DNA from: Methanobrevibacter sp.
GTDB taxonomy: Archaea > Methanobacteriota > Methanobacteria > Methanobacteriales > Methanobacteriaceae
DNA: 33,599 nt
Assembly: GCA_017473945.1 (NCBI GenBank)
Contig: JAFUIW010000044.1
Span: forward strand, 1 to 33,599
Reading direction: 5' to 3'
Below the pieces are notes generated by a model. The model worked only from the letters and a program-made list of their open reading frames with translations. It made no database searches and was not told where the DNA came from. Of the stretch, positions 11,201 through 32,394 are shown piece after piece. Both the position numbers and the translations under genes were made by a program. Position 1 is the first letter of the stretch. Every line of letters begins with the position of its first letter.

Positions 11201-13309
11201 GTAATCTGTTCCATTCTTGTTGATTACCATTACGTTTCCTGGAGCTTCACCCCAACCGTTCAAACCGGAAATGTTTAAATTCTTGAATTCGTCATAGTAC
11301 TTTAAATATAAGTTGTAATAATCAACTGATTGAGTTTTTGCATAATTTTTTAGACTCAATACAATATTTTCCAGAACATTTTTAGCTTCAGATGCCTTGT
11401 CCTCAGGCAACAGTGAAACAACCTGATTATACCAGTCATCAATTGTGTCTGAAATTGTTTTGGTATAATTTAACTCAACAGCCCTTTTTGTCAACTCGCC
11501 GATATATGCGACTGTTCCGTTTGTTACCTGTATTTTTACAATGTCATCCAATGAGTTGAACCAGGAAGTGTACTCTTTTACAGGAAGCAAAGTTACCTCA
11601 GGCCTATCAGCAAGCTTTGCAAGCTCACCTGGAGCCCAAGTAGCCACATTAATACCGCAGGATATTATCATGTCTTCAAGCTCTGAAACATTTTTAGGAA
11701 TTTCACCAACATCGTATCCCGCATCCTTTAGGGTGTAAAGCATGTTATAGATACTTTTTATTGTGTCCAGATAACTTGAGCCGATATTCTGTTTTCCAGG
11801 AGGGTAATTGTAGTAAATTATGGACAGAAGTTTGTCATCGTTGCTGGTGTATTTCAAATCCACCCATGAATCAATTCTATCGGCTAAAAGCTCAATGTTT
11901 CCCTTATGTGCAATGTATGTTGTGATTTCTGCACCTGTCATGTTTGAAATATAGCTTGAAGCACCGCCAATGAATGTGGCATCGATTATACCCTGAGTTT
12001 CAGCAATGGTAATGTGCCACCATTTGTCGCTTCTCTCAGTTGTCAAACCGGTTGAGCCAAGTTCCCACTGTTCGTTTGAAACATAATCAGAGTGAACTGC
12101 CCTGAATACTGGAACTCCTGCTTCCTCAAAGAAGTCTGTAGCTTTTGTGAAGTTTTCACCGCCGACACCATAAGCAACCATGGAAACAATAGCATCAATG
12201 CATACATCATATGCAGATGAGTTAGATAAAAATCCGGAAATGTCAGATCCTGCATCTGTCCAAGATTCAACCATGACCTTAAGCTGGTCTGCTGAACCTC
12301 CTGCAGCAAAAACAGGTATTACATTATATCCTCTTGATTCCAAAGAATCAATTATGGAATAGCATGTATGCAGCTGCTGAGATTCAATATACATTGTACT
12401 TTCAAGAACACCAACTGTGCGATTGAAATCGGGGTTGAAAAAAGTAGCAATATACTCATCCAATGAATACCATCTGTCCCTGTAGATTCCATAGGTCTTG
12501 GAACCGGTGAATGCAGGATTGTCAAATGCAACATCAAAGCCCATATAATTCAAAATGTACAATATCTGGTTTTTCAAGTTATCCTTGTCGTTCAAGTCCT
12601 TATAAAGAATTAACTGATTTAAAAATGGGTTGAAATCTTTTGCATCACTTGTCAAAAAATTGTAAACATTGAAATAAGAGAGTCCTCTTTTAGTATTTTT
12701 AAAATATTTGATTAATTCTTCATTTGAATAAGTTGCAAATATCTTATTGTAATTCAGAGTATTGTTTCTAATCAGTTTTATTGAACTTGAATCGGAATTC
12801 AAATTACCTGAAGGAGGTTCCAGAATCAAAAACAGTTTTTTGTTGGACAAATCAGGATTCTTTGAAAGAATGCTTGTCAACACTGAATCGACATCACTGC
12901 TGACCCATTCGCCAACAAAAGCATCACAGCTTGAAAGCAAATGTGTGAGTTCACTTTCATCCATTGTTTTAATTTGATTTCCGTTTCGGATAACCAGATT
13001 AACATTATCAAGCTTGTTTTCACCTTCAAGTTCCAAGCTGGCCTTGTCAAGAATGTTTGTTCCAGGATTATCACTGATTATAAATAAAGTAGCATTTTGA
13101 GAATTGGATAAATCCTCATGTGAATTTTCAATTGAAAGCTTATTAGAGACTCCAGAGTCATCAATTTGCATTTCAGCCATATCACCATCACTTTGAGCAA
13201 TTGCCAAAGTATCATTTGACCCTGCAAATGCAATTTGTGACAATAAACTAAAGGACAGTAATATAAGAATTGCTAAAAGAATTGTCTGTTTTGTTCCATA
13301 AAATTTCAT
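8261..13309 (-). CDS. cobN: Secreted, membrane-anchored CobN/HmuS-family chelatase
   Basis: A 1682-residue CobN/BchH-type chelatase large subunit. The family core is visible around residue 765 as VGRHATHEWLPGK (CobN consensus GTHGxLEWLPGK) followed by VGDVPQLYFYIADGLAEAIQAKRRG. Unlike cytosolic CobN, it has a signal peptide (1-30, ending AFAG), a Ser/Thr/Asn-rich stalk (about 1545-1635) and one C-terminal span (about 1640-1660) with a charged tail, so the catalytic body is outside the cell. A Cys cluster, CCDCSC, lies at 1505-1510. Anaerobic archaea insert cobalt early with CbiX/CbiK and do not need CobN, and no ATPase partner (CobS/CobT, BchI/D) is present. With the ExbB/ExbD-like pair behind it, it resembles HmuS, which removes metal from haem. 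The symbol gives only the family; substrate may be haem, corrinoid, F430 or a metal. GGGGAT precedes the ATG. Confidence 0.85.
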   Translation of the reverse strand: MKFYGTKQTILLAILILLSFSLLSQIAFAGSNDTLAIAQSDGDMAEMQIDDSGVSNKLSIENSHEDLSNSQNATLFIISDNPGTNILDKASLELEGENKLDNVNLVIRNGNQIKTMDESELTHLLSSCDAFVGEWVSSDVDSVLTSILSKNPDLSNKKLFLILEPPSGNLNSDSSSIKLIRNNTLNYNKIFATYSNEELIKYFKNTKRGLSYFNVYNFLTSDAKDFNPFLNQLILYKDLNDKDNLKNQILYILNYMGFDVAFDNPAFTGSKTYGIYRDRWYSLDEYIATFFNPDFNRTVGVLESTMYIESQQLHTCYSIIDSLESRGYNVIPVFAAGGSADQLKVMVESWTDAGSDISGFLSNSSAYDVCIDAIVSMVAYGVGGENFTKATDFFEEAGVPVFRAVHSDYVSNEQWELGSTGLTTERSDKWWHITIAETQGIIDATFIGGASSYISNMTGAEITTYIAHKGNIELLADRIDSWVDLKYTSNDDKLLSIIYYNYPPGKQNIGSSYLDTIKSIYNMLYTLKDAGYDVGEIPKNVSELEDMIISCGINVATWAPGELAKLADRPEVTLLPVKEYTSWFNSLDDIVKIQVTNGTVAYIGELTKRAVELNYTKTISDTIDDWYNQVVSLLPEDKASEAKNVLENIVLSLKNYAKTQSVDYYNLYLKYYDEFKNLNISGLNGWGEAPGNVMVINKNGTDYFVIPGLTFGNVFIAPEPQRGWESDIENLYHCTAVAPTHQYLAAYYYMQTTHPNAMVFVGRHATHEWLPGKEILLSATDYGSVVVGDVPQLYFYIADGLAEAIQAKRRGFAVIISHLTSPMSYTHLYGNLTVAANLINDYQKGSFDKSKIESQLRNLIIANDYSTNLGLNKSEIKRISIDSLIDKMNEFLISTQDTLYPLGLHALGDAWSEQDLASTVSAMLSKDHVLENNQGIINLFTELSGAYFSKEYSKLTSFEREFILNKSYDICRALIYWDECVVLQVISSENSKLNNSNVVACLNLAKDYIQLINQSISSELNSMLDGLNGRYIPVGEGGEIVVKPAILPTGGNMFQDQSSELPTQDAWQYGKTLALLTLSGLNDTTEKVIMGIWCVETARDDGALVSSVLYLLGMKPVWTDSSSAGYDDEGNPTGKKVGSMPEVIKLDDLTRPDGWDKKRIDVTVITSGLFRDLYSSQSILMDNAYRVALARSYFTLINNKTLMSDDLKRALEGVMQSINYYGVSNEPLDSNYVAQHWIEDCKYYLSIGYNASYAGECAITRIFAPPNGDYGAGISKLVSMSWTWNDTDELAQFYLGRMGNMYSKNYWGDTNPLVFIRALSDSDTIVTSRNTNQYGVLDNDDFFDYWGGLSMAVENVSGKTPKMNVLMYSDKDNAYISSLEEVMYREIAARYDNPNWISGMMKEGYSGARYMSNKFVSNLYGWQVTRPSSVSDDLWNRVYNTYYKDKYGIGVKDWLMSGNNAYSLISMSGTMLTSIHEGYWNADKATISDIANTWAQATVKNGVACCDCSCGNIAMMQWAVQYVNPDILAQLLPKLYEATQNPVFLNNTNSIPPENVDPSNVDPSTPNPTEGSTSSNTMSANSTTSNNQFSQSSSASNGQSVSAAGESESAGDVGGASAQGADVKKSIEINPVTQQSASEVGMSLIAVLGVICLILIIGVGYFRDKDEDKKSSNLDELFNEKL

Positions 13310-18507: not shown

Positions 18508-18915
18508 ATGAAAATTGCAATTAGATATTACACAAAAACCGGAAATACCAAAAAGCTTGCAGAAGCAATAGCTAGTGCAGTTAATGTTAAAGCAAAAACA
18601 GTGGATGAACCATTGACAGAAGATGTTGACATCCTATTTTTAGGAAGTGCTGTGTACGCCGCAGGAATTGATCAGAAAATCAAGGATTTCATCAAAAGCA
18701 TCAACGTCGATGTTGGTGAGGTAGTCAATTTTTCATCAGCCGCTCTAATCGAGTCAACCTACAAACAGGTTAAAAAGGAAGTTGAAGCAAAAGGATTGAA
18801 AATAAGCGAAGATGAATTCCACTGCAGAGGTGCATTCAAGTTCGTCCACAGGGGAAAGCCTGATGACAATGACCTGAAAAACGTTCAGGAATTTGCAAAA
18901 AGAATAGTTAATTAA
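18508..18915 (+). CDS. Flavodoxin
   Basis: A 135-residue flavodoxin-fold protein. The FMN phosphate loop TKTGNTKKLAEAI is at residues 9-21, and the second loop is FLGSAVYAAGI (about 50-60). The size is at the short end of the flavodoxin range. It would carry one or two electrons to or from a redox partner, possibly the neighbouring oxidoreductases. AGGTG precedes the ATG, and an own promoter in the 48-base gap is possible but not obvious. Its stop codon overlaps the stop of the converging channel gene by four bases. Confidence 0.88.
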   Translation: MKIAIRYYTKTGNTKKLAEAIASAVNVKAKTVDEPLTEDVDILFLGSAVYAAGIDQKIKDFIKSINVDVGEVVNFSSAALIESTYKQVKKEVEAKGLKISEDEFHCRGAFKFVHRGKPDDNDLKNVQEFAKRIVN

Positions 18916-19712
18916 TTTTTCTTATTCTTTTTTATCTTTTCTTCCAAATCATCAAAGCGACTGTTCAGGTGTCTTTTGATGATTGCAACCGTCAGGGTTG
19001 CAGTACCAACACCAGACAATATGAAACCAGCCCAAACCAGAACTATAGCATTAAGTTTACCGAAACTTGATTGACCCAGAATAGCATAACCGTTACTGGT
19101 AAAAGCATTGGAAACCATTGCAAGAGAGTTTAAGGGACTGACATTTTCAACAGGCATGGTAATCAAAAAGCTGATGAATACTATTGAGAACAACAGCGTT
19201 ATGGTTATCCCCAAACTGTTGGTTTGGGTGTATTCCATGAATTTGTCAAAGTAAAACTTAATGAAATATATGAAGACCATTTGATGGAAAAATTCCAATA
19301 TAAATATCCAATCATTTGAGAAGAGTATATAGTTTAAAGAACCTACAGGAACCAATAACAATAGTAACAACTTATTTTTACGACCTTCCCAATCAATATT
19401 CATTGCAACTAATAGAGAAATGACAATGTCAAAGAGGACCAAATTATTGGTGTCGCCTCCCCAACTGACAAATGAATATAAAATATTCACAATGAAACAC
19501 ACTATCATAACCAGATAAAATACCTGATTTAAGGTGGAAACCTCCTCATCAGGAAGATAATTTTTCGGATTTAAAAATTCATGGGACATTATGCGAGGAT
19601 TTGAAGTAATCTTATCATATACATATTTTACGACCTTAATCATCACGGCAAAAATACCAATGTAAACTAAAAGCGCTATGATGAAAAAAAGAATTTCCAC
19701 TATAATGTTCAT
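18912..19712 (-). CDS. Ion-channel-like membrane protein, paralogue A
   Basis: A 266-residue protein with six to seven membrane spans. Its C-terminal part has the span-pore loop-span layout of a cation channel: a span ending at MPVENVSPLN, a re-entrant segment LAMVSNAFTSNGYAILG (about 192-208), and a closing span GFILSGVGTATLTVAII, followed by a short basic coiled tail. TSNGYA holds the place of a TVGYG-type filter but is not canonical; a TrkH-like pore loop is an alternative reading. A conserved cytoplasmic LPDEEVSTLNQVFYL segment lies after the first span. It is 4 bases overlapped with its paralogue upstream (ATGA). No known family is firmly recognised. Confidence 0.7.
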   Translation of the reverse strand: MNIIVEILFFIIALLVYIGIFAVMIKVVKYVYDKITSNPRIMSHEFLNPKNYLPDEEVSTLNQVFYLVMIVCFIVNILYSFVSWGGDTNNLVLFDIVISLLVAMNIDWEGRKNKLLLLLLVPVGSLNYILFSNDWIFILEFFHQMVFIYFIKFYFDKFMEYTQTNSLGITITLLFSIVFISFLITMPVENVSPLNSLAMVSNAFTSNGYAILGQSSFGKLNAIVLVWAGFILSGVGTATLTVAIIKRHLNSRFDDLEEKIKKNKKN

Positions 19713-20494
19713 TCTTCAGCCTCCCCTTCGTCAATCAACTCTTCAAGTCTTTTAATTCGTCTGTTAAAGTATTTTAGTAGAATTGCCGCAGTCAGTGTTG
19801 CAGTACCCGCACCGGATATGATATAGCCTCCCCAGACTAAAAAGAGACTGTTAATCTTTCCAACAACACTATTTCCTAAAACGGCATAACCGTTACTGGT
19901 AAAAGCATTGGAAACCATAACCAAAGAATTCAACGGATTCTGCACCTCAACAAACATGGTTACTATAAAACTCACGAAAATTATCAAAAACAACAAAAGG
20001 ATTGTAAAACCCAGACCGTGGCTTTGAGTATACTGCCTAAATTTCCTATAGTATATAATAATGACATACACCAAAATCGGAAGGTGAATAATGTCAAATA
20101 AAGTCAAATAAGTGGAACTGAATAAAATGAAAGACAATGATCCAAACGGCAATAAGAAAAATACCACAAGTTTATCCTTCCATGTATCCTTATCAAAGAG
20201 AATTGCGGCAACTAAACAGAGCACAATGTCAAAAAATGATAAATAATATATGTCATTTCCAAAAACAATGAACGCATAAGTGAAATCAACGAAAAACAGT
20301 GCCATCATTATAAGATAAAAAACCTGTTTCAGTGTTTGAATTTCCTCTTCAGGAAGATATTCCTGAGGGTTTAAAGCAGAGCTGGAACTATTTTGCACTT
20401 TTTTTACTATAAAAGTTCCAAAAGCTACTAAAACCGAAAAAATCACCAAATTAATAATGAATTGGAGCGAAAACTCTATAAACAAATCCCACAT
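19709..20494 (-). CDS. Ion-channel-like membrane protein, paralogue B
   Basis: A 261-residue paralogue of the next gene, alike over the full length: LPEEEIQTLKQVFYLIM after the first span, PLNSLVMVSNAFTSNGYAVLG as pore loop, and GGYIISGAGTATLTAAIL as last span, then an acidic tail (EELIDEGEAEE) where paralogue A is basic. Opposite-charged tails and translational coupling suggest that A and B form one hetero-oligomeric channel. It follows the broken TMEM175 gene by 12 bases, so the cluster as a whole concerns cation flux. Gating and ion are unknown. Confidence 0.7.
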   Translation of the reverse strand: MWDLFIEFSLQFIINLVIFSVLVAFGTFIVKKVQNSSSSALNPQEYLPEEEIQTLKQVFYLIMMALFFVDFTYAFIVFGNDIYYLSFFDIVLCLVAAILFDKDTWKDKLVVFFLLPFGSLSFILFSSTYLTLFDIIHLPILVYVIIIYYRKFRQYTQSHGLGFTILLLFLIIFVSFIVTMFVEVQNPLNSLVMVSNAFTSNGYAVLGNSVVGKINSLFLVWGGYIISGAGTATLTAAILLKYFNRRIKRLEELIDEGEAEE

Positions 20495-21183: not shown

Positions 21184-23406
21184 TTATTCACTTTTAACAA
21201 TTTTTAAACCAACATCATTGGCTAGGTTTTGAAGGTTGCTTAAAGTCCGAATATTTAGTTTTTTAACCTTGTTGTTTAGTTTTTTCCAGGATACCAGGTT
21301 AGGATTAATTTTTTGCTCATTATCTCTTCTGTGACCATATTTCCAACCTAAATTGACACAATCCATATACCAAGACTCATGTTCTCTTCGGGCAAGATAG
21401 TCCACTTCTTTTGCAGATAGAGAAATCTTTTCACCAGGCTCGTCTAGGGAAACCAATTTATAACCCAAATCTCCCAATGTTTTAACTAAGCGTTCTGTTT
21501 GCTTATAATTTGAGAATCTGATATCTTTAGATAATTCTTCAAATTTCTTCCCTTTAACTTTAATACTGTAATATTTATGTTTTTCAATAGTGAGCAATTT
21601 TAATTTGGAAATAACAACTTTCAATCCTATTGAATCTAAAATATCAGGAATGTTTGCTACAGCATTCCTATCTTTTTGTTTTTCCTCATCAGGCAACTTC
21701 TCCCATTCAACTAAAGAAGGTTGAATCTTATTTTCCTCATCACGCACTTCCCCATAAGTCCATCCGTTTTGAATTTTCTCATTGCACCATCGTTCATGTT
21801 CAAATACAGCCATATTTTCAATTTCATCCTCCGTGAATTCGTATTCTTCACGGACATCATTTTTCAAGGCTATTTCGCAACCGATCATACTGAGTTTAGC
21901 CGGAATTGATTTGGCCTGGCGAACATTGGACAATTTATATCCTGCAGGCAAATCCTCATAATTTTCATCAACTACAACATTACCGTTTTTCTTCTCAGAT
22001 TCTATATAATTGTTGTGTATCTGAATAGCCAATTTCTCAATATTGCTCATTATCACATAAGGAGCATGAACTTCTTTTCTTTCTATCTCCTTGATAACAT
22101 CATCAAGTTCAATCTTGGTTACCACATTGAACTTTTCAAACAATACGTCCACATAAAGCACATCATTTAAAAATGAAACCTTATCTTTTGAGAATCCGAA
22201 TCCGAGGGAGCCTGAATTGAGTATATATTGAATATCCAATTCATCATCAGTTACTGTAATAATTGAGTCATTAACATGATTCTTTTGTTTATCCTTTACA
22301 CCCAGTGGCCTGCGGTTCCACTCCTGAAGCTCATCACACAATATAAGCATAAACGCTAAAGGAGAATCTTGTGGATGGAGTTGTTCCAGGTCGAAAGGTT
22401 CCTCCTGAAGAGTGTTTCTATAATAATTATGCAGTAAAATTGCACTTGCACTGTCCACTATTGGATAAAAGAAGAAGTCTTGATCTTTTTCACCGATATT
22501 TTGAATCAGAGAACCATATGAATTAAGTACCAGAATGGATGAGAAAAATCCATGGTCTATGAATCCCTTATTTCCCATATACTCTACAAAACCCTCTAAA
22601 TGATTAATCAGCATATCTATATCAATATCCAAATCTGTGGATATTTTATGGGCCATGATATTGGTAGGTTTGAATAGGTCTAAAAATTTGGATTCAGGAT
22701 AAACATCCCGGTATTTATCTGCAAATTCAGGTTTAATCTTGCGGATTGAATTAAACTCATCGAAATCCTTAAAATCGATGGCAGTATTCACATCATAGGT
22801 AGGTGAAATTGATTTTACACCTTCTTTAATGAAATTTTTCAATTGCTTTCCTATAATTTCAACAGGATATCCGATGTCATGGAAAAGTGAAGCTATACCC
22901 CAACGATATAGGAATTCCTCATTGGACACTTCAATATCTCCAGACACGCCTTCCAGTCGATAATACTTATGATATGGACTTTCTTCAATATAATCTTTGA
23001 ATATGTCCCTATAATTTGAGTTTTGAGAGTAAATTGCCAAACCTAAAAGAAATACATTGACGGAATGGATAAAATGATCTCTTTGTTTTTCAATTAAATC
23101 CCCAGTATTGCTTTCATATCTCTTCATGATTTTAACCAATTCCAAAAGGGAATTAGGTTCATTTTTAATCAAGGACTCATCAAATTCACTATTGCCCTTA
23201 TCTGATTTATTTTCAGATGTGATTTGATAAATCATGAAAAAAGTTTCATATACCTCATAAGCATTAAATGTATTCTCATTATCTAAAAAATTATCAATGA
23301 CTGCTTTTAAAAGATCCTTATAATTATGGCCGTTATGGATATCATCATATAACTCCAAATCATTGAAAAAGTCATTGATATAATTTTTAAAATTATCTTC
23401 GCTCAT
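21184..23406 (-). CDS. HD-domain protein with two C-terminal RyR domains
   Basis: A 740-residue cytosolic protein. Residues about 105-330 carry an HD-type phosphohydrolase-like domain, with QRDHFIHSVNVFLLG (H111, H114) and SLFHDIGYP (H176, D177). Two RyR (pfam02026-type) domains follow at about 521-600 and 661-740; each shows EHExW, GWxYG, a basic-acidic loop, P-x-L-V-x-W-x-x-L and a final helix ending GLK. RyR domains are known from ryanodine receptors and from prokaryotic proteins in nucleotide-signalling and conflict systems, where they are predicted ligand sensors. The residues between (about 330-520) are unrecognised. GGGG precedes the ATG, and a run of TTAA repeats at 23422-23444 supplies a promoter of its own. 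It could hydrolyse or sense a nucleotide signal. Confidence 0.8.
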   Translation of the reverse strand: MSEDNFKNYINDFFNDLELYDDIHNGHNYKDLLKAVIDNFLDNENTFNAYEVYETFFMIYQITSENKSDKGNSEFDESLIKNEPNSLLELVKIMKRYESNTGDLIEKQRDHFIHSVNVFLLGLAIYSQNSNYRDIFKDYIEESPYHKYYRLEGVSGDIEVSNEEFLYRWGIASLFHDIGYPVEIIGKQLKNFIKEGVKSISPTYDVNTAIDFKDFDEFNSIRKIKPEFADKYRDVYPESKFLDLFKPTNIMAHKISTDLDIDIDMLINHLEGFVEYMGNKGFIDHGFFSSILVLNSYGSLIQNIGEKDQDFFFYPIVDSASAILLHNYYRNTLQEEPFDLEQLHPQDSPLAFMLILCDELQEWNRRPLGVKDKQKNHVNDSIITVTDDELDIQYILNSGSLGFGFSKDKVSFLNDVLYVDVLFEKFNVVTKIELDDVIKEIERKEVHAPYVIMSNIEKLAIQIHNNYIESEKKNGNVVVDENYEDLPAGYKLSNVRQAKSIPAKLSMIGCEIALKNDVREEYEFTEDEIENMAVFEHERWCNEKIQNGWTYGEVRDEENKIQPSLVEWEKLPDEEKQKDRNAVANIPDILDSIGLKVVISKLKLLTIEKHKYYSIKVKGKKFEELSKDIRFSNYKQTERLVKTLGDLGYKLVSLDEPGEKISLSAKEVDYLARREHESWYMDCVNLGWKYGHRRDNEQKINPNLVSWKKLNNKVKKLNIRTLSNLQNLANDVGLKIVKSE

Positions 23407-23500: not shown

Positions 23501-24259
23501 TTATGAGGAATATTTCCTTAAACCTCCATAAAATTTTTCTACTTGTCGAACATTGAAATTAGATGTATCAACATGAAAACGCATAGTCTCTATTTCAAAA
23601 AAATCATAACTTTTGAATTCGAGTTTTCCAGGTTTCTTATAAATTTTTTCAACAGCAATTAAGTATAAATCTATTATCAAGTCCCCTATTTCCTCAGTTA
23701 CATTTCCAACACATTCCTCAAACCAATCGGCAAGATGAGTTACAACAAAAGCCGGAATGGAAGTTGGCCTTGATGCGTCTACAATCTCCCTAATCAAATC
23801 ATGATTCTTGCTTTCAAAATACTCCTCGAAAAGATTGTACAATCTCAACATGTCCTCACCCATCAATGTTAAGAGTTCATCTGGCATGTCCAATGCCTCA
23901 ATATCCTCGCTGAACGGACCAAGATATATCAAATCATAAAAAAACAGATAAATAAATGGATTTAATTTATTTCCATATATAAATGCTTCACTGAACATTG
24001 CATATATCTGCATCCATTCATCCTTTGAAAAAATATGATACTCAAAAGCCCTGAAATCCTCGAAATCCAATTCAAAATCAAGCACATAGGGGGAGTTGAA
24101 ATTAAACTTTAAGAAAATATTCAATACATGATCAGAATATCCAATATCTTCAGCTGAAGATATATAAGCCAAGAAAGTTCTGGCCAGTTCTTTGAAAAAC
24201 TTTCTTTTGGCCTTTTTAAAATCCCTTGATTTGTAATTGAACATTCCATCAATAATCAT
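23501..24259 (-). CDS. Conserved-looking protein of unknown function in the kinase-Hsp70 operon
   Basis: A 252-residue soluble, mainly helical protein that I do not recognise. It is rich in Phe, Tyr, Asp and Glu, with the basic start YKSRDFKKAKRKFFKELART, a central acidic helical part, and no signal peptide, membrane span or obvious catalytic triad. HLADWFEECVGNVTEEIGDL (about 175-195) is the most patterned segment. GGGTGAT lies before the ATG, only four bases behind the stop of the phosphatase gene, so both are surely co-transcribed. By position it is the last gene of the phospho-signalling operon, perhaps an adaptor or target. Confidence 0.75.
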   Translation of the reverse strand: MIIDGMFNYKSRDFKKAKRKFFKELARTFLAYISSAEDIGYSDHVLNIFLKFNFNSPYVLDFELDFEDFRAFEYHIFSKDEWMQIYAMFSEAFIYGNKLNPFIYLFFYDLIYLGPFSEDIEALDMPDELLTLMGEDMLRLYNLFEEYFESKNHDLIREIVDASRPTSIPAFVVTHLADWFEECVGNVTEEIGDLIIDLYLIAVEKIYKKPGKLEFKSYDFFEIETMRFHVDTSNFNVRQVEKFYGGLRKYSS

Positions 24260-24263
24260 ATAA

Positions 24264-25034
24264 TCACCCGATAATGAATTTCAATTGTTTTTGAACATCT
24301 TCAATGCATGTAATCTCCATTGACAAATCCATGTCAAGATAAGTCTTGACTTTGGTGTTGAAGCTTGATGACATAATAATCTGCTTTGAAAACACTTTAT
24401 AGGATTCAACTGGACAATGCCCAACAATCATAGCCTTCAAATCCATTATTTCCAGAAACCTATCAACATCGCTTTGGATATAGTCTGTGACATTATTGTA
24501 CCTGTTCCATAGAAAATCATATAAAATTGGACTTGAATAGTCGCTTGCAAATATGGTGTTAAATCCGTCAACTGATTTGACCTTTGTTGATGGACCTGAA
24601 TGAGATATGAACAATCCGTTTTTTGTTTTTGCAAAATAAGGCATTGACTTGAAAAATCTGATGTATCGAGTCAGGTGAGGTTCTATAAAACCTTTTTTGT
24701 ATGATATTACGTTTTTGAATCCCAAAAGCAATGGCTGATTGTTTTTATATATTTCAGTGCTGGTGATTTGAGCCCATTCATGGTTTCCCAAAAGAGTGTG
24801 GAAATTCGAAAATTCCTTTGATTTTGCAATGGCATCATCCAAAATTTCTACAGACTGATCTTTTTTCACGTCAAGGCCATGAATCATATCTCCTGTAAAA
24901 ATAATGTGGAAATCTTCATCTGATTCATCCCATAAGTTCAGATAATGATTATAATCATCAAAATTGCCGTGCAAATCTGTCACTACAATTAAACGACCAT
25001 GGCCAGGCAATTCAATCAATTTATCATTGGTCAT
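24264..25034 (-). CDS. PPP-type metallophosphatase
   Basis: A 256-residue calcineurin-fold phosphatase with the full metal-site series in order: TDLHGN (Asp-x-His), FTGDMIHG, LLGNHEW, then ISHSGPS and IVGHCPV. The order and GNHE form place it in the PPP branch with protein Ser/Thr phosphatases and ApaH-like enzymes. The ATG at 25032-25034 is preferred over an in-frame GTG at 25043 because AGGTG sits six bases before it. It lies in one operon with a Ser/Thr kinase and an FHA protein, so dephosphorylation of phospho-Ser/Thr proteins is the most likely job. Hydrolysis of a dinucleotide such as Ap4A cannot be excluded. Confidence 0.85.
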   Translation of the reverse strand: MTNDKLIELPGHGRLIVVTDLHGNFDDYNHYLNLWDESDEDFHIIFTGDMIHGLDVKKDQSVEILDDAIAKSKEFSNFHTLLGNHEWAQITSTEIYKNNQPLLLGFKNVISYKKGFIEPHLTRYIRFFKSMPYFAKTKNGLFISHSGPSTKVKSVDGFNTIFASDYSSPILYDFLWNRYNNVTDYIQSDVDRFLEIMDLKAMIVGHCPVESYKVFSKQIIMSSSFNTKVKTYLDMDLSMEITCIEDVQKQLKFIIG

Positions 25035-25043
25035 AATCAACAC

Positions 25044-25213: not shown

Positions 25214-28200
25214 TTAAAGTTTTTTATTTATGTGCCTTTCATCAAGCTCATATAGCAGTTCCACAATATTGAACAGCTCGTCATAATCATACATGTTAAG
25301 GCAATCCTGTGCCTTTCCAATTAGCTCATCTGCAAGTTTTTCATTGTTCGTATAAATTCCTTCAAGTTTTAAATTGAAATAGCACTCCTCAAGAACACTA
25401 TCCCTATTCAATGCAACATATCTTGCAACCAAATCACTATGATATCGCTTCAGCTGCTTTAAGTCATTATTTGCCAATATTTCATCGATTTCTTCGATTT
25501 CAAATAGACCCTTGGCCTTTGCAATTTCCATTTTTCTTAAAACATTTTCCCTTAATGTGACAAATTCCAAATCCTCTTTTTTATACTCCACCAAAGTTTC
25601 CAAGTAATCAATGTAAATTAAAGTCTGATTATATGCAATAGGGTATCGTTTGGACATCTCAACTAACCGGTCAATGTAGTCAAGGATTTCCTGATTGAAT
25701 TCATATGAATAATCCTTTAAAAACTCAATGTCATTCATTATTCTGACATGACGATTCATCAAGTCCCTTAAAATGATGCCATCATCATTCATGCCAAATG
25801 ACCTGTTAAGGTATGGAATATGGATGAGTTCATTTTCAACTATGTTCGGTGATTTAACGTCAATGCCAACCGTCAAGGCTTTATTATAAATGTTGATGGT
25901 GAATGACTCAAAAGGCAAACTAACCCTAAATTGACCATCAATTGTTAATGGAACCACCATTGAATTATCATTGCTTTTGAATTCTATTTCATATCCTAAA
26001 AACGAGCATTTGGAATCCATGCAAAATACTTTTCCTGAAATAATTCCATTGGCAGAATTCAGAACAACTGAAAATGGCTCTTCAGAGTGCATTGAGTGCG
26101 GTTTTTCAAGGCTTCCCGCATAGAGGGCTGCACCTCTTGACACGACAGTCAATGGATTCAGGCCTGATTCAATCTCAATATTGAATTCCTCGGCAATGCT
26201 TTCATGAACAATCGGACTGAGAGATGAACCGCCAACAAGAATAATTTTGTTTATGTCATCGTCACTAAGTGAGTTTTCATCTAACAGGTCTCTTGAGATT
26301 TTAAATGTGTAGTTAATTAATGGAAGCATGATTTCCTTGAGTGTTTCTTGAGTTAAACTGTACTTAAAATCATAACCATCAAAAAGATTAGGAGCACATA
26401 TAGATGACTCTGTTGAAATAGTTAAATCTTTCTTGATTTCTTCTGCAAGATTTTTCAGTCTTGCGAAAATCTTGTCATATTTTTTATTTTCCCGTCTGAA
26501 ATCATCAAGATTAAGGTCATAAGCAATTTTCGGCTTGAACAAATCATTGACAATCTTCCAGTCAATGGCGTTTCCTCCAAGATTTTCCAAACCATCAGTT
26601 GCAAGCTTCTCAATCTCTCCGTTGTTATCTCTAATCAATGTGACATTGAAAGTTCCACCACCCAGGTCATAAATCATCCAAACGCCATTATCTGCTTTAA
26701 GATTATAGGCCAGGCTTACGGCAATAGGCTCCAACAGAAGGCTGTGTGATCTGAATCCTGCAAGTTCAGCAGCATCATTGACAGCCCTTGTCTTTATGGG
26801 ATTTGAATTGGCAGGAACACAAATAACAACATGTTCCATATTCACTCCAGTTTCATCATATACGGAAACTCTCAAGTCCTTTAAAACCTCTGCAGACAGC
26901 TCTTCCGGAAACATCACGCGGGAAGAATTTTCAAACTTGAACGGAACTGAAAATCCCATGTTCTGTTTGAATTCAGATACTGCATTACGGCTGTTTTCAA
27001 AAATCGCATTCCGTGCGACTGCACCCACTTTAACATTATCAGAATCATCAATCAAAACTGCTGACGGTGTAAAATCTTCCCCTGTCCGGTGATTTTTTAT
27101 GACTGTAGGATTTCCATCATTAAAGTAAGAAACAACAGAGTCTGTTGTTCCCAAATCGATTGCATAGTCAATGGTGTCCTTTTTAATCTCATATGTGTTT
27201 TTGAAATGCATTTTCATGTTCTGTTTCCACAGTGACATTTTATATGCATATTTCTGTCGGATTTGTGGGTTTACAACAACAGCAAATTCCATCAGATTGG
27301 CTCCAGAGGAGAGCTTATTCAAGTTGACCAATCTTACTGCCTCAACAGCAATCTCATCTACTGAGTAGGTTTTAAGCGTTGGAAGAATATCTTCATACAA
27401 TGCATTAATTTCGCTGCTTGACTTCATCAGATTCTCAAGCAACACTACAGATTTGAACAGGCTTCCATGACTCTGAAGGTCAATGAATATTTTCCACAGT
27501 TCAATATAATGCTGATACTTATTTTTAAGCGATGGATTGTAAGCTATAGCTTCATTTAAAAAGTTACAGGCAAGCTTGTAATTCTGTCCTTTGAGATTTA
27601 CAGTGAAAGCCTTTGATATCAGCTTCAAATCGGGATTTTTAGACTTCCATATTCTCAGCGTTTCGGAATAGCACTTACGAACATCATAATCTGCCAAAAC
27701 TTCCCCTTCCAATATCTCAATAGCTTCATCCAGTTTATTTTCACGCTTAGCAAGTTCAAAAGCTTCCCTAATCGAATCATTTATTATGTACTCAGCATAT
27801 TCGTCATGATAGTCATCACTGATGCTTGAACCGTATGAAATTTGTGAAGATGTAAACTCGTCAATGGCTTTTTCAACATCACCTAAAAGGCCATATGCAT
27901 CGCCATATCGCTTGTCCGGATTGGTGTCAAGACATTTCATTACAATCTCATCAACTTTGCCAGAGACATGTTTATTATAATAGCTGGGTGCTTTCAGCTC
28001 CTTTTTCCATGGTTTTAAATCAATCAGCTCTTCATTAGAGTATTCATCAACATCATAGGGATAACGATTGGTCAAAAGCTGATAGAAAATAACACCAACG
28101 GCATAGACATCACTTCTGGTCGATACTGATTTGGTGAATAGTTCAGGAGCCATGTACGGCCTTGTTCCGGCAATGTCAATGTCCGATATGCCGGTTGTTA

Positions 28201-28741
28201 CTTCCTTTGCAAAACCGAAATCAGATATCTTGATTAGAATATTTCCACAGGCGTTAAAACTGAGCAAAACATTGTTTGGCTTTAAATCTCTATGTATTAT
28301 AGGAGGGTTGGCAGAATGCAAAGTGTTTAGTCCATTGAGTATCTGGCGAATCAAATCCAGACTCCTGGACATTGGCATGAACAGGTTATTTTCAATGAAT
28401 GAATTCAAATAACGCTCCAGATCTCCTCCTGAAACGTATTCCATTACAAAATAAGCATGGTTTTGGCCGTCTTCAAAATCAGATATCTCGGCAGCGTCAT
28501 AAATAGCTATGATATTTTCATTTCTGAGCTGACTGGCCAATGTGACCTCACGAAAAACTTCTTTTTTATTAGTGGAAGCACTTAAGGGTTCCTTGATGAT
28601 TTTCATTGCCATCAATGTATCTAGATAGTTATGATTTACCAGATAAACCTTTGCAAATGATCCTTCACCCAAAAATTTTTTAACTTCAAATTTTCCATTA
28701 AAAAATTCTTCTATCAGGCGTTTAACTTCATCAAAGCCCAC
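25214..28741 (-). CDS. Ser/Thr protein kinase fused to an Hsp70 ATPase domain
   Basis: An 1175-residue cytosolic fusion. Residues about 15-290 form a Hanks-type kinase with every catalytic part: GEGSFAKV (25-32), Lys47, HRDLKPNN (150-157), DFG (174-176) and APE (198-200). Residues 320-515 are helical and repeat-like. From about 525 to 880 comes an Hsp70-type ATPase: DLGTT (529-533), the phosphate-2 loop DLGGGTF (692-698), the adenosine loop VGGSS (837-841) and RGAALYAG; the remaining 295 residues hold a short beta part and helices, not a standard DnaK tail. No membrane span or DnaJ partner is visible. It lies between an FHA protein gene (30 bases) and a phosphatase gene. A kinase that senses or is gated by protein folding is an attractive reading. 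GTG/ATG choice: ATG at 28741. Confidence 0.92.
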   Translation of the reverse strand: MGFDEVKRLIEEFFNGKFEVKKFLGEGSFAKVYLVNHNYLDTLMAMKIIKEPLSASTNKKEVFREVTLASQLRNENIIAIYDAAEISDFEDGQNHAYFVMEYVSGGDLERYLNSFIENNLFMPMSRSLDLIRQILNGLNTLHSANPPIIHRDLKPNNVLLSFNACGNILIKISDFGFAKEVTTGISDIDIAGTRPYMAPELFTKSVSTRSDVYAVGVIFYQLLTNRYPYDVDEYSNEELIDLKPWKKELKAPSYYNKHVSGKVDEIVMKCLDTNPDKRYGDAYGLLGDVEKAIDEFTSSQISYGSSISDDYHDEYAEYIINDSIREAFELAKRENKLDEAIEILEGEVLADYDVRKCYSETLRIWKSKNPDLKLISKAFTVNLKGQNYKLACNFLNEAIAYNPSLKNKYQHYIELWKIFIDLQSHGSLFKSVVLLENLMKSSSEINALYEDILPTLKTYSVDEIAVEAVRLVNLNKLSSGANLMEFAVVVNPQIRQKYAYKMSLWKQNMKMHFKNTYEIKKDTIDYAIDLGTTDSVVSYFNDGNPTVIKNHRTGEDFTPSAVLIDDSDNVKVGAVARNAIFENSRNAVSEFKQNMGFSVPFKFENSSRVMFPEELSAEVLKDLRVSVYDETGVNMEHVVICVPANSNPIKTRAVNDAAELAGFRSHSLLLEPIAVSLAYNLKADNGVWMIYDLGGGTFNVTLIRDNNGEIEKLATDGLENLGGNAIDWKIVNDLFKPKIAYDLNLDDFRRENKKYDKIFARLKNLAEEIKKDLTISTESSICAPNLFDGYDFKYSLTQETLKEIMLPLINYTFKISRDLLDENSLSDDDINKIILVGGSSLSPIVHESIAEEFNIEIESGLNPLTVVSRGAALYAGSLEKPHSMHSEEPFSVVLNSANGIISGKVFCMDSKCSFLGYEIEFKSNDNSMVVPLTIDGQFRVSLPFESFTINIYNKALTVGIDVKSPNIVENELIHIPYLNRSFGMNDDGIILRDLMNRHVRIMNDIEFLKDYSYEFNQEILDYIDRLVEMSKRYPIAYNQTLIYIDYLETLVEYKKEDLEFVTLRENVLRKMEIAKAKGLFEIEEIDEILANNDLKQLKRYHSDLVARYVALNRDSVLEECYFNLKLEGIYTNNEKLADELIGKAQDCLNMYDYDELFNIVELLYELDERHINKKL

Positions 28742-28771: not shown

Positions 28772-29563
28772 TTAAAATGTACAATAAATTACTGCTCCGC
28801 CATTTCCCCTGGACAACTTTAAAAATGAATTAGGTTTTAATTTGGTAGCTTTGCCCTTTTGAACTTCAATATCTCCTATGTAAGTTCCGTTTGAGCTAGC
28901 CTCATCAATTATATACCAACCGTCATTTTTATAAAACAATTTCAAATGAGGTTTTGACACGTTGGAAACTGTATCATAACTGTTGTCCAAAAGAATGGAA
29001 AATGATGCCAGATCTGCCTGGCTGAAATTTGCCTTACGACCAATTAGGACTGTTTCATCCCGGCGAACTTTAAATGTTTTTCCTTTATCCACACCATTGA
29101 ATATTGTGAGTACGCAGTTGTCATCCTCATGGTATTTTTGATTAGACTTATACAAATCAAAGAATGTGAAGAGCTCATCGGAAAGGAAGTTAATTTCCAA
29201 AAATAAGTCTTCAAATGCATCTTCCTTGATAACGTAAGCCTTAACTGTTCTTTTACCAATCTTATTGGGCACTTCCTTTTTTATTTCAACTTCACAAACG
29301 AGATTGGCGTTCATGAGCTGTTTCATGTGTTGGCCCAACATCTGTGGAGTTATTTCAATATTGTAATTTTTTAAAAGAATGGAGTTGATTTCACGTGAAT
29401 ATAAAGGGTCTGTTGACTGTGACTGATTGTATTTCTGATTGTCCCTTAAGATTTCAAGTATTGAAAATCTCACTTTATTATTTACTGCTGCTAGTTTCTG
29501 AGAAATTAAGTCAGAACTTTCTGAATCTATAATTACTGTTTTATCGATATCTGAATCGAACAT
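28772..29563 (-). CDS. Winged-helix and FHA domain protein
   Basis: A 263-residue protein. Residues about 25-115 form a winged-helix DNA-binding domain (VRFSILEILRDN, SREINSILLKNY, TPQMLGQHMKQLMNANLV, then a wing). Residues about 150-263 are an FHA domain with the phosphothreonine-binding set GR (175-176), SxxH (203-206) and NG (225-226). The N-terminus has DKTVII, a Thr context like those phosphorylated in other kinase-FHA systems. Joined with the next gene, a Ser/Thr kinase, it offers a direct route from phosphorylation to transcription: the phosphorylated kinase or N-terminus would be bound by the FHA domain and alter DNA binding. It might autoregulate the operon. Confidence 0.88.
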   Translation of the reverse strand: MFDSDIDKTVIIDSESSDLISQKLAAVNNKVRFSILEILRDNQKYNQSQSTDPLYSREINSILLKNYNIEITPQMLGQHMKQLMNANLVCEVEIKKEVPNKIGKRTVKAYVIKEDAFEDLFLEINFLSDELFTFFDLYKSNQKYHEDDNCVLTIFNGVDKGKTFKVRRDETVLIGRKANFSQADLASFSILLDNSYDTVSNVSKPHLKLFYKNDGWYIIDEASSNGTYIGDIEVQKGKATKLKPNSFLKLSRGNGGAVIYCTF

Positions 29564-29598: not shown

Positions 29599-30399
29599 CT
29601 AAATTGCACTGCTTAAAACATCATGATAAGCTTTCAAGTCTTTTTCACGTAAATTCAGCTTATCCATAAGCTCAACAATTAATGCATCAAGCAATACCAA
29701 AGCTGAAACCTCAAATGCAGTTCCCATCAAAATCAATTCCAATGGACGGTATATATTACTTATACCATATATTTCATGAGGCAATTCGTACATCTGCGCC
29801 ATTATCTTTTTATCAGCCATATCTATATTTTTTCTAGGAAGCTCTTCGAGTTGACGTTTTATATCCTCATCCCTTTCAAAATTCATGATAGTCTTTGGTA
29901 AAAATTCAATGAAGCGTTCTATGTCTGAATCTTCAAGGTTTACAAGCATCTGCGGCAGTGAATCAATTACAATTCTTGCATCAGACTTCTGGGCGAGGTC
30001 TGATTCTGTATTGCCGCAAACGGTTAAGAACTTGACATTGTCGATTTTGGAGTCCTCTACAATCTGAGTAATTGAATTGGATTTACCTGATTTGGATATG
30101 ATTATGATAATATCTCCATCCTGGACAGGCGGAGCTATTGTTTCATTGAATACATATACGTAAAATCCCAAATGCATCAGTCTCATTGCAAATGACTTAG
30201 CAACGAAACCTGATCTGCCTGCACCTGCGAGGAAAATTGTGGTTTTTCTCTCTGTGGCAGTTCTCTTATTTGAAGCTGTCAAAATTATGTCCCTAAACTT
30301 GCAGATAGCTTCTTCCTGATTTTCTAAAACTGATTTTGTTCTATTAAGATTTTTTAGGATTTCATCCAAAGATAAATCCATATATTTTAACTCAGACAT
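29599..30399 (-). CDS. SIS-domain protein, 6-phospho-3-hexuloisomerase-like with insertion
   Basis: A 266-residue SIS (sugar isomerase) protein. The fold is shown by FLAGAGRSGFVAKSFAMRLMHLG (about 53-75), DIIIIISKSGKSNSIT (about 95-110) and the closing helix GTAFEVSALVLLDALIVELM, which is diagnostic for 6-phospho-3-hexuloisomerase (HxlB). Normal HxlB has about 180-200 residues; here some 60-70 acidic and helical residues (about 165-228) are inserted before the last part. HxlB acts in the ribulose monophosphate pathway that makes pentoses in many archaea, but no hxlA is adjacent. AGGTTATT precedes the ATG. It sits between RtcB and FHA genes, so a regulatory or repair-linked role is possible. 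Confidence 0.82.
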   Translation of the reverse strand: MSELKYMDLSLDEILKNLNRTKSVLENQEEAICKFRDIILTASNKRTATERKTTIFLAGAGRSGFVAKSFAMRLMHLGFYVYVFNETIAPPVQDGDIIIIISKSGKSNSITQIVEDSKIDNVKFLTVCGNTESDLAQKSDARIVIDSLPQMLVNLEDSDIERFIEFLPKTIMNFERDEDIKRQLEELPRKNIDMADKKIMAQMYELPHEIYGISNIYRPLELILMGTAFEVSALVLLDALIVELMDKLNLREKDLKAYHDVLSSAI

Positions 30400-30411
30400 G
30401 TCAATAACCTT

Positions 30412-31518
30412 TTAAGCTTTGAAATTATAAACTGGTTTTACAATATCTATTATTTTAACTGTATCTTCGACATTATTTAAAATATTATCTATTGGTTTAT
30501 ATGCCATCGGAGATTCATCCAATGTTTTTTTGGAAACTGATGTTGAATATATTCCTTCCATTGCCCTTTCGAAATCATCAAATGACAATTCTTCCTTGGC
30601 TTTGGAACGGCTGAAAAGACGTCCTGCACCATGAGGGGCAGAATAGTTCCAGTCACTGTTTCCCTTTCCTTTACAGATTATTGACCCATCGCGCATGTTT
30701 ATCGGAATTATTAATGTTTCGTTTTTGTTTGCTGAAACAGCACCTTTTCTTAAAATCATCCTGTCCATATCAATGTAGTTGTGGATTGTAGTGAATGATT
30801 TGGTGAAGTCCATTCCGTATTCGCTTAAAATGGTCTCGGCTATGGCCTTACGGTTCAGTGATGCAAAGTCCTGCATTATTTTCATGTCATGTATGTAATC
30901 CTCAAATATCCTTCCTTCACAGTAAATCAGGTCCTTGTCCGATGCCATGTTGTGGAATCTCTTGAACTCCTTCAACGCTGCATTCTGATAGTATTCACAA
31001 ACATCAGCACCGATTCTGCGACTTCCTGAATGGATTACCATTATCAAATCACCATCTTTGGTTTGATTGATTTCAATGAAATGGTTTCCACCTCCAAGAG
31101 TGCCCAGTGCGAAATTGCCTTCGCTTCCAGCCTCTAAATTGAAATAACATTTGAGTTCTGTCAAGTCAAAATTATTCATGAAATGATGAGGTATTGCCCT
31201 TTTCTTGTAGCCGTGAGGCACCTTATGATGAATTATATGGTCAAGGCGTTCAAAATCAATCACATCGACATCAAGATAAACCACCTCCATTCCACAGCCT
31301 ATATCAGATCCTACCAGATTTGGAACAACCCTGTCTGTAATTGTCATTGTTGTTCCGATTGTACAGCCCCTTCCAGCATGGATGTCTGGCATCATGCGTA
31401 TTTTCTGGCCTTCAGCGATGGGCTGGTTTAGAAATTGGATTACCTGTGAAATGCTGACCGGATCAACATCATCTGAAAATATTTTGGCTGTTGCATATCT
31501 CCCATTTAATTCAAACAT
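30412..31518 (-). CDS. rtcB: RtcB-family RNA ligase, short form
   Basis: A 368-residue RtcB-family protein. Visible are DIHAGRGCTIG, the metal Cys in LVGSDIGCGM, GGGNHFIE, HSGSRRIG and SAPHGAGRLFSRSKAKEE, which holds the His that takes the GMP adduct. RtcB joins 2',3'-cyclic phosphate to 5'-hydroxyl RNA ends using GTP. The canonical archaeal tRNA-splicing RtcB has about 480 residues; this one is more than 100 shorter, like bacterial accessory RtcB forms used for RNA repair. GAGGTGAT precedes the ATG, the strongest ribosome site in the region, and a TATA-like run lies at about 31541-31575. It is the first gene of the string that leads through SIS and FHA genes to the kinase, with gaps of 12-35 bases. 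Confidence 0.88.
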   Translation of the reverse strand: MFELNGRYATAKIFSDDVDPVSISQVIQFLNQPIAEGQKIRMMPDIHAGRGCTIGTTMTITDRVVPNLVGSDIGCGMEVVYLDVDVIDFERLDHIIHHKVPHGYKKRAIPHHFMNNFDLTELKCYFNLEAGSEGNFALGTLGGGNHFIEINQTKDGDLIMVIHSGSRRIGADVCEYYQNAALKEFKRFHNMASDKDLIYCEGRIFEDYIHDMKIMQDFASLNRKAIAETILSEYGMDFTKSFTTIHNYIDMDRMILRKGAVSANKNETLIIPINMRDGSIICKGKGNSDWNYSAPHGAGRLFSRSKAKEELSFDDFERAMEGIYSTSVSKKTLDESPMAYKPIDNILNNVEDTVKIIDIVKPVYNFKA

Positions 31519-31628: not shown

Positions 31629-31985
31629 ATGAAACAACTAATCAATAGCTTCAAACATGCAACTGAAGGAATAATCACCACAATTTGCGTTGAGCAAAAC
31701 GTGAAAATACAAGTTCTGGCAATGATTTGCACTGTCATTTTGGGATTAGTATTAAAATTATCACAAATCGAGTGGATTATCTGTATCTTACTGTTTGGAG
31801 GCGTAATCAGTGCCGAGATGTTCAACACATCTCTGGAAAAGACGCTTGACTACATCAACACCGAATACGATGAAAAAATCAAGTTCATCAAGGATGCATC
31901 GGCAGGGGCAGTTCTGGTTTTGGCAAACACATCCACAATAATCGGACTGATTATTTTCATCCCAAAAATCATATCCTCAATCTAG
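31629..31985 (+). CDS. Diacylglycerol/undecaprenol kinase family protein (DgkA-like)
   Basis: A 118-residue three-span membrane protein with the prokaryotic DgkA signature AEMFNTSLEKTLD (about 64-76) and KDASAGAVLVLA (about 90-100), where the Glu and Asn bind metal and ATP. It phosphorylates a membrane lipid alcohol such as diacylglycerol or a polyprenol; in archaea the lipid is probably an isoprenoid alcohol. The ribosome site (TAGG close to the ATG) is weak. It is divergent from rtcB, and its last 17 bases overlap the converging phosphatase gene. Confidence 0.88.
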   Translation: MKQLINSFKHATEGIITTICVEQNVKIQVLAMICTVILGLVLKLSQIEWIICILLFGGVISAEMFNTSLEKTLDYINTEYDEKIKFIKDASAGAVLVLANTSTIIGLIIFIPKIISSI

Positions 31986-32394
31986 CGATTTTCAATGCTC
32001 TTGAGATTTCCATGAAACATGCATCATATACAGAATAATTTCCTCCGACAGGATCTGGAATGTCAAGAGGATATTCATGGATGAATTCCCTGATTGTGTA
32101 TATCTCGACATCAGGATAGTATATTTTAACTTTTTCCTTGTGATACTGCTCAAATGTCAGTACCAAATCCATATCATCTATTTTCGCATCCTTAAAGTAA
32201 GTTGCCCTATGGTCAGATAAGTCTATTCCATGAGCCATGCAAACAGATAGAGTGTTTTTTGACGGTGATTTGCCGTTTTTTGCAATGACTCCGCAAGAAT
32301 GGACTTCAACATCACTTTTCACCATAAGTTTGAATATTGCTTCAGCCATTGCACTTCTGCATGTATTTGCAGTGCAAACAAATATGATTTTCAT
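31969..32394 (-). CDS. Low-molecular-weight protein phosphatase (LMW-PTP family)
   Basis: A 141-residue protein beginning MKIIFVCTANTCRSAMAEAI, with the phosphate loop Cys7-x5-Arg13-Ser, and the general-acid loop IPDPVGG (about 112-118). Length and order are standard for the family, which includes phosphotyrosine and phosphoarginine phosphatases and thioredoxin-type arsenate reductases; the extra Cys12 in the loop is compatible with a redox switch. It overlaps the DgkA-like gene tail to tail by 17 bases, so transcription of one may affect the other. A link with the kinase operon nearby is possible but not shown. Confidence 0.88.
   Translation of the reverse strand: MKIIFVCTANTCRSAMAEAIFKLMVKSDVEVHSCGVIAKNGKSPSKNTLSVCMAHGIDLSDHRATYFKDAKIDDMDLVLTFEQYHKEKVKIYYPDVEIYTIREFIHEYPLDIPDPVGGNYSVYDACFMEISRALKIARLRI

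Follow-up and report, generated by a model that had tools for sequence, protein, structure and literature searches.

The kinase–Hsp70 fusion gene

The window analysed here, a stretch of 33,599 nucleotides from Methanobrevibacter sp., a methanogen of the rumen (contig JAFUIW010000044.1, our G000:C33, of the 2.36-Mb assembly GCA_017473945.1), carries on its reverse strand a gene that joins a Hanks-type Ser/Thr kinase and an Hsp70 ATPase in a single chain. The encoded protein runs from the kinase through a helical linker, the Hsp70 nucleotide-binding domain (NBD) and a beta-sandwich to a set of helices, and its start site lies where its relatives also begin. The gene and its parts are as follows, SBD-beta being the substrate-binding beta domain of Hsp70.

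25214–28741, reverse strand: kinase–Hsp70 fusion gene, 1175 aa, GTG start (open reading frame (ORF) list, Pfam, 18 distinct fused proteins including the window's own)
27902–28690, reverse strand: Hanks-type Ser/Thr kinase domain, residues 18–280 (Pfam and motifs K47, E65, HRDLK 150–154, N157, DFG 174–176, APE, D211, R278)
27182–27901, reverse strand: helical linker, residues 281–520, predicted helix, common to the separate kinases
26105–27181, reverse strand: Hsp70 NBD, residues ~521–879 (Pfam), with D529, K592, E671, D692 and T697 kept
26645–26647, reverse strand: codon of N699, at the place of the catalytic-site Asp (DnaK D201, presumably Hsc70 D206)
25787–26077, reverse strand: beta-sandwich, residues ~889–985, FNIII/Ig-like arrangement with weak matches only
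25832–25837, reverse strand: place of the SBD-beta deletion, residues 969/970, where a unit of ~120–150 residues present in the unfused partners is absent
25232–25780, reverse strand: C-terminal helices, residues ~988–1170, possibly a remnant of the Hsp70 lid

Both catalytic folds are recognized by Pfam, with Pkinase at residues 18–280 (E 1.2e-53, far above the cut-off) and HSP70, the actin-fold NBD with its phosphate and adenosine loops, at residues 528–879 (E 1.1e-61; 209 bits versus a cut-off of 20.6), while the NCBIfam matches all fall far below their cut-offs. Relatives were surveyed by running a profile of the kinase and linker (A2) on 151 Methanobacteriota genomes at E up to 1e-15 and reading out the length of the open frame. 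The profile matched 37 of these genomes: an open fused frame of more than 1000 aa occurs in 20, all of them within the window's genus, and an unfused kinase frame of 527–592 aa in 14, of which nine belong to the same genus and five to two other genera of the family. The working set comprised 18 distinct fused proteins, all but one of which are full length (17), together with 14 kinase/Hsp70 pairs that are not fused. Six loci (L049, L096, L099, L101, L102 and L103) were left out as copies of contigs already counted, L105 is cut at a contig end and was excluded from C-terminal counts, and two incomplete fused proteins (L008, L014) together with a broken copy in L045 were used for the Asp count only.

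The kinase–Hsp70 fusion is real and conserved. An assembly artefact or a chance product is ruled out by the 18 distinct fused proteins, which come from 18 genomes on separate contigs and show low ratios of nonsynonymous to synonymous substitution (dN/dS), and by the 20 genomes with an open fused frame. Pairwise identity ranges from 52 to 84% among the 13 fused proteins compared, and the relatives in named genome contigs are all from uncultured Methanobrevibacter (seven of seven). A search of the host's own genome also showed that DnaK is encoded separately (L004) and that kinase and Hsp70 occur as individual genes at a second locus (L002, L003).

A mobile or viral origin was dropped, since a scan of viral contigs contained no relative of the fusion and none of 72,556 plasmid and 50,697 phage records covers 80% of the protein. 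A named defence system was likewise dropped, as every PADLOC match shown for the fusion begins within the kinase domain and leaves the Hsp70 part uncovered. No description of a single-chain kinase–Hsp70 protein turned up in listings from the open-access literature, which as a partial corpus gives weak evidence of absence, and the M. ruminantium genome paper (Leahy 2010, PMC2812497) contains no match to the terms DnaK, FHA, chaperone or ryanodine.

Kinase half and linker

By its motifs the kinase half is intact, and we take it to be an active kinase. The glycine loop, the VAIK Lys, the alpha-C Glu, HRDxxxxN, DFG, APE and the conserved Asp and Arg are kept in 18/18 fused and 14/14 unfused proteins, the sole exception being one fused protein with DLG in place of DFG (F175 is kept in the other 17). 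The ~240 residues between the kinase and Hsp70 domains are mostly predicted helix, and because the unfused kinases carry this same segment and terminate at the point that corresponds to the start of the Hsp70 in the fusion, the linker belongs to the kinase. Across four pairs of fused proteins, dN/dS is 0.03–0.15 for the kinase, 0.05–0.12 for the linker, 0.05–0.13 for the NBD and 0.10–0.28 for the C-terminus, ratios that are rough, as dS exceeds 0.9 for three of these pairs; judged by these values, purifying selection acts on what is left of the ATPase fold.

An earlier note on this stretch had described a single ORF at 25214–28741 with kinase and Hsp70 ATPase, a full set of kinase catalytic motifs and about 200 helical residues joining the two domains. 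The ORF call and Pfam agree with the first exactly, the motif counts agree with the second apart from the single F-to-L change, and the linker proves somewhat longer than the third; the assembly artefact that the note had raised as a possibility falls away with the number of distinct fused genes.

Two losses in the Hsp70 half

The Hsp70 half differs from its unfused relatives in its catalytic site. Reading the NBD columns against the organism's own DnaK, the equivalents of D8, K70, D194 and T199 are kept in 18/18 fused proteins and that of E171 in 17/18. The equivalent of D201, which we take to correspond to D206 of Hsc70 as fits the motif alignment, is Asp in 14/14 unfused Hsp70s and in none of the fused proteins (N in 14, T in 2, H in 1 and S in 1 of the 18); the two incomplete proteins and the broken copy also carry N, giving Asp in 0/21. 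Phosphate loop 2 of the window protein accordingly reads DLGGGTFN and not ...TFD, the third Gly of this loop is altered in 4/18 fused proteins, and a complete DnaK-type catalytic site (D8, K70, E171, D194, T199, D201) was not seen in any fused Hsp70 half. The hydrophobic interdomain linker, IVLLLDV in the host's own DnaK (VLLLD type), is absent from the aligned place in the 13 fused proteins of alignment A1 (13 of the 18). The Hsp70 module is probably slow or non-hydrolysing. Mutation of Hsc70 D206 affects both ATP binding and hydrolysis, according to a passage of PMC3137890 that cites Wilbanks 1994; no literature on DnaK D201N was found.

The second difference lies beyond the NBD, where the 17 full-length fused proteins have 281–312 aa, compared with 373–476 aa in the unfused Hsp70s. 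When the fused and unfused C-termini are aligned as profiles, they match along their whole length except for a single large gap on the fused side, and the unfused residues opposite this gap are the ones that correspond to the substrate-binding domain of DnaK (E 4.5e-6, probability 87%; 11% with the split pairs, set B below, alone). Independently of that alignment, a profile of this unfused segment (A4; 13 of 14 sequences, L095 being excluded as near-identical to L048) was run against PDB sequences; with E up to 1 it finds 59 of them, the best at 3.8e-6, and nearly all are named as Hsp70-family members (5tky_A carries no name, and 31gn_A is an import motor subunit). The fused C-terminal profile (A3, 17 sequences) matched 0 PDB sequences at the same limit. 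From these alignments, SBD-beta has been lost by an internal deletion near residue 969 in 17/17 full-length fused proteins; loss is the simpler direction because DnaK and both unfused arrangements (sets B and C below) have SBD-beta.

What remains of the C-terminal part is modelled with good confidence (pLDDT 89.6) as a beta-sandwich at residues ~889–985 followed by helices at 991–1166. In the VIA structure comparison, the best rows for the beta-sandwich are FNIII and cytokine-receptor chains with Z up to 6.0, an uninformative range, and Foldseek gave no match to it at E up to 0.001; a transthyretin-like identity, guessed by eye, was dropped on both counts. The 50 VIA rows shown include no Hsp70 SBD-beta stretch, which proves nothing, and residues 988–1059 drew one DnaK-lid row with a Z of only 4.5.

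Several statements of the earlier note need dividing in the light of these results. Its view that both halves are apparently intact holds for the kinase in 18/18 proteins and fails for the Hsp70 half, where the Asp is gone in 21/21; both phosphate loops are indeed in the chain, loop 2 without its catalytic-site Asp. Loss of catalytic residues in most homologues, which the note had named as grounds for refutation, is seen in the Hsp70 half only, and there at one position. The want of a full substrate-binding domain and lid was correctly seen as regards SBD-beta, which is internally deleted relative to the unfused proteins, and has to be qualified for the C-terminus, where a predicted helical part persists.

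Distribution and single origin

Trees were built separately for the kinase with its linker and for the NBD. The fused proteins form one clade in both, with support of 100/98 and 100/100, respectively, and in both a branch separates the kinase/Hsp70 pairs of separate operons (set C) from the split pairs (set B) together with the fused clade; the branch of L087 is long, and the NBD tree does not unite set B in a single clade. With the trees of both halves in agreement, a single fusion event is indicated. The fusion is patchily present across the genus. Broken or shortened copies of it or of its kinase occur in G019:C27 (L045:2336–5856), in G001:C27 (L016) and at L053:5721–6830, and we read them as a sign that the fusion has been lost repeatedly.

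Gene neighbourhood

There are three ARRANGEMENTS of the kinase/Hsp70 core: fused (set A), split into neighbouring genes (set B) and in a separate operon (set C). The fullest order in set A is RtcB, SIS, helix-turn-helix (HTH)/FHA, kinase–Hsp70, metallophosphatase, RyR proteins and a pair of membrane proteins, which in the window correspond to the following genes.

30412–31518, reverse strand: RtcB-like protein gene, first in the row
29599–30399, reverse strand: SIS-domain (HxlB-like) protein gene
28772–29563, reverse strand: HTH-FHA protein gene, 30 bp upstream of the fusion (FHA by Pfam, HTH by eye)
24264–25043, reverse strand: metallophosphoesterase with PPP-like motifs by eye, a candidate opposing phosphatase whose family recurs in the separate-gene operons
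23501–24259, reverse strand: short protein clustering with the RyR family, no Pfam domain
21184–23406, reverse strand: RyR-domain protein with two RyR repeats and, by eye, an HD-like N-terminal part
18912–20494, reverse strand: two paralogous membrane proteins that by eye resemble channels

The HTH-FHA gene lies directly upstream in 18/18 fused loci. Our own FHA pattern matched 13 of 26 HTH-FHA proteins, with GR, His and NG seen in those inspected; only half were matched because the pattern demanded an often-variable Ser and fixed spacing. In set B the kinase gene precedes the Hsp70 gene with gaps of 164, 98, 58 and 33 bp (L086, L087, L088 and L089, respectively), the HTH-FHA gene lies upstream in each of the three split loci that extend far enough for it to be seen, and L086 and L088, which also have RtcB and SIS, occupy the same RtcB–SIS–HTH/FHA locus as the fusion. 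Directly downstream of split pairs are DUF4062-AAA-WD40 proteins of ~1570 aa (L086:1124–5887, L088:481–5166). Set C, in ten loci (L042, L045, L047, L048 and L090–L095), runs ClpB-like AAA, kinase, f21, f20, Hsp70, in some cases TPR-TM, and PPP-like phosphatase, and the host's own genome provides an example (L042:3322–15485, contig C30). A TIR-PMP protein heads some set C operons, the TIR domain being confirmed by Pfam in L042, L047 and L048. A J-domain in f21, guessed by eye, was dropped after none of three members showed a DnaJ match in Pfam with E up to 1.

Phage RyR domains bind or cleave the 2'/3' cyclic ADP-ribose (cADPR) made by TIR enzymes, according to PMC13232231. Read by eye and not from structure, several of the RyR proteins in these loci have a first repeat that carries the His, Trp, His and Asp ligand residues named there for phage RyDEP, and in the window's copy Gln replaces the second His of that set. 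A 1070-aa single chain with TIR and RyR (L035:17566–20778) lies downstream of a kinase–Hsp70 gene, and could possibly both make and read a cADPR-like signal.

Other features of the window lie around this row. The membrane-protein pair has a TSNGYAxLG-type loop that by eye resembles a channel pore, with no Pfam match. Just past the RtcB-like gene, a low-molecular-weight phosphotyrosine phosphatase-like protein (31969–32394) adds another phospho-signalling gene, and a 1682-aa ORF at 8261–13309 is adjoined by ExbB-like, DUF2149 and DUF2162 genes.

Interpretation and alternatives

At the level of sequence it is established that the fusion exists and arose once, that its kinase motifs are intact, that the NBD fold is under selection, that the Hsp70 half has undergone both losses and that the HTH-FHA gene is a constant neighbour. 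We interpret this as an active kinase fused once to its Hsp70 partner, which has lost SBD-beta and the catalytic-site Asp and serves as a cis regulator or scaffold and not as a chaperone, in a signalling path through the HTH-FHA protein; in our estimate this interpretation has an even chance of being right. Control of an active kinase by the NBD module is the best reading because conservation extends to both halves and in the split relatives the two are encoded by adjacent genes. After its split from the unfused lineage, the Hsp70 half lost SBD-beta and the D201-type Asp, while purifying selection kept the NBD fold and most of the ATP-site residues; the module would bind ATP, hydrolyse it slowly or not at all, and act in cis as a regulator or assembly scaffold of the kinase, with the beta-sandwich and helices binding a partner or signal. 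The kinase would phosphorylate itself, the HTH-FHA protein or both. Phosphothreonine is what FHA domains read, and the one encoded here would do so while the HTH alters transcription, the PPP-like phosphatase resetting the signal. A stress or conflict (immunity-like) response may be the output, since in its three arrangements the core has RyR, TIR, ClpB or DUF4062-AAA-WD40 genes as neighbours.

A number of observations weigh against this interpretation. The model of the full chain is poor (mean pLDDT 64, kinase N-lobe below 50) and offers no reliable contact between kinase and Hsp70. Slow ATP hydrolysis may persist in a protein whose Asp at this position is altered. The Asp and SBD-beta losses each map to one branch and hence count as one event each and not as repeated evidence, and they may be unrelated to the fusion; they are no rule for fusions either, because a Streptomyces anulatus fusion, described below, keeps both. 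The link from kinase to FHA protein is drawn from gene neighbourhood, and the genes downstream of the fusion are not constant (RyR-family genes in 14/18 loci and phosphatase in 10/18, with contig ends cutting some stretches).

The alternatives differ chiefly in what they ask of the Hsp70 half. If it still functioned as a sensor of the chaperone type, the kinase would be gated by the Hsp70 ATP cycle or by the binding of clients, or would itself act on those clients, much as the earlier note had suggested. The kept NBD fold, most of the ATP-site residues and the purifying selection on the NBD agree with this, but the client-binding beta domain is deleted in 17/17 full-length fused proteins, the catalytic-site Asp is absent in 21/21 and the DnaK linker sequence is missing, so that we consider such a sensor quite improbable. 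Client gating and kinase action on clients are unsupported because of the SBD-beta deletion; of the earlier proposal, a gating role of the Hsp70 part survives as control by the NBD module. The Hsp70 half might instead be a passive scaffold or dimerization platform whose nucleotide has no regulatory role, the kinase being controlled only via the helical linker or partners. The replacement of the Asp by N, H, T or S and the loss of the loop 2 third Gly in 4/18 proteins suggest such relaxed demands on the site, yet the D8, K70, D194 and T199 equivalents kept in 18/18 and E171 in 17/18, together with an NBD dN/dS about as low as that of the linker, make this unlikely. At the level of the whole gene row, RtcB and/or SIS upstream in 13/18 fused loci could speak for a housekeeping role in which the row regulates RNA repair or sugar-phosphate metabolism and has no part in stress or conflict signalling. 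This we hold to be improbable, given that both genes are absent at L043, L051, L100, L104 and L105 while HTH-FHA stays, that the fusion is patchy and has broken copies, and that TIR, RyR, ClpB and DUF4062-AAA-WD40 proteins are among the neighbours.

Returning to regulation by the NBD module, the Hsp70 half has the look of a chaperone that was converted into an integral component of a signalling switch. Living relatives still display the split form, the single fusion and the parts that the Hsp70 gave up, and because these show what was discarded, the kinase would seem to need the NBD fold of its partner and not client binding. A bolder version, which we put forward tentatively and consider somewhat unlikely, is that the Hsp70 became a 'pseudo-chaperone' after fusion, a client-less, ATP-binding, hydrolysis-impaired cis switch of the Ser/Thr kinase in the manner of pseudokinases, heading an archaeal FHA-read cascade that governs RyR/TIR-type (cADPR-like) nucleotide signalling. 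If such an ATP-held switch were confirmed, Hsp70s would join kinases among the folds that evolved catalytically weakened regulators.

Comparison with known systems

Kinases and Hsp70-like proteins adjoin in several prokaryotes, and the fusion family bears on how the pair cooperates. The split (L086–L089) and separate (set C) relatives have a kinase, linker and Hsp70 homologous to those of the fusion, but as two chains and with an Hsp70 that keeps the Asp and SBD-beta. A likeness to the fusion locus is found in E. coli, where yegD, encoding an Hsp70-like protein of 450 aa that ends with the NBD, adjoins the kinase gene yegI and lies near the phosphatase gene pphC, with yegL in the same cluster. 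The E. coli set differs in that the genes are separate, yegD is on the other strand, YegD keeps the Asp (GGGTTD) and the phosphatase is PP2C-like. YegI is without conserved kinase motifs according to the title of its paper, and YegD matches the fused Hsp70 half weakly, along only a portion of the NBD (25% identity, E 1e-6). Hsp70s that lack the peptide-binding domain are also described, with HSP70/GrpE, in predicted operons of GTPase-centred conflict systems (Kaur et al., 2020; PMC7159879); these differ in their GTPase and tubulin-type partners, and the available part of that paper mentions no kinase–Hsp70 fusion.

Single chains combining the two activities occur on plasmids. In a Streptomyces anulatus plasmid protein (L106), an N-terminal kinase and a C-terminal Hsp70 share one chain as in the methanogen fusion, but the Asp and SBD-beta are kept, the C-terminus is short and a helical linker of this kind is absent; judged from this make-up, it is independent of the methanogen fusion. 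A Halomicrobium plasmid protein (L055:8578–12060) likewise unites Hsp70 and kinase, but in reverse order, with GrpE between them and an SBD present, and has Ser at the D201 and T199 equivalents and Asp at that of E171. In the 4 kb next to this gene, the DNA translates as repeated peptides, with a CRISPR-array-like appearance. The Hsp70–GrpE–kinase order was found in 3 of the 72,556 plasmid records, and kinase–Hsp70 in one Streptomyces anulatus plasmid. Asp loss thus accompanies fusion in two of the three kinds of fusion seen, and SBD-beta loss in one of the three. The earlier note had proposed a search of other archaea and bacteria for the same fusion: it recurs in the 20 Methanobacteriota genomes, and separate kinds exist in Halomicrobium and Streptomyces. 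These are independent kinase–Hsp70 fusions, and because both plasmids encode such combinations in a single chain, the joining of kinase and Hsp70 as such is not unique to methanogens.

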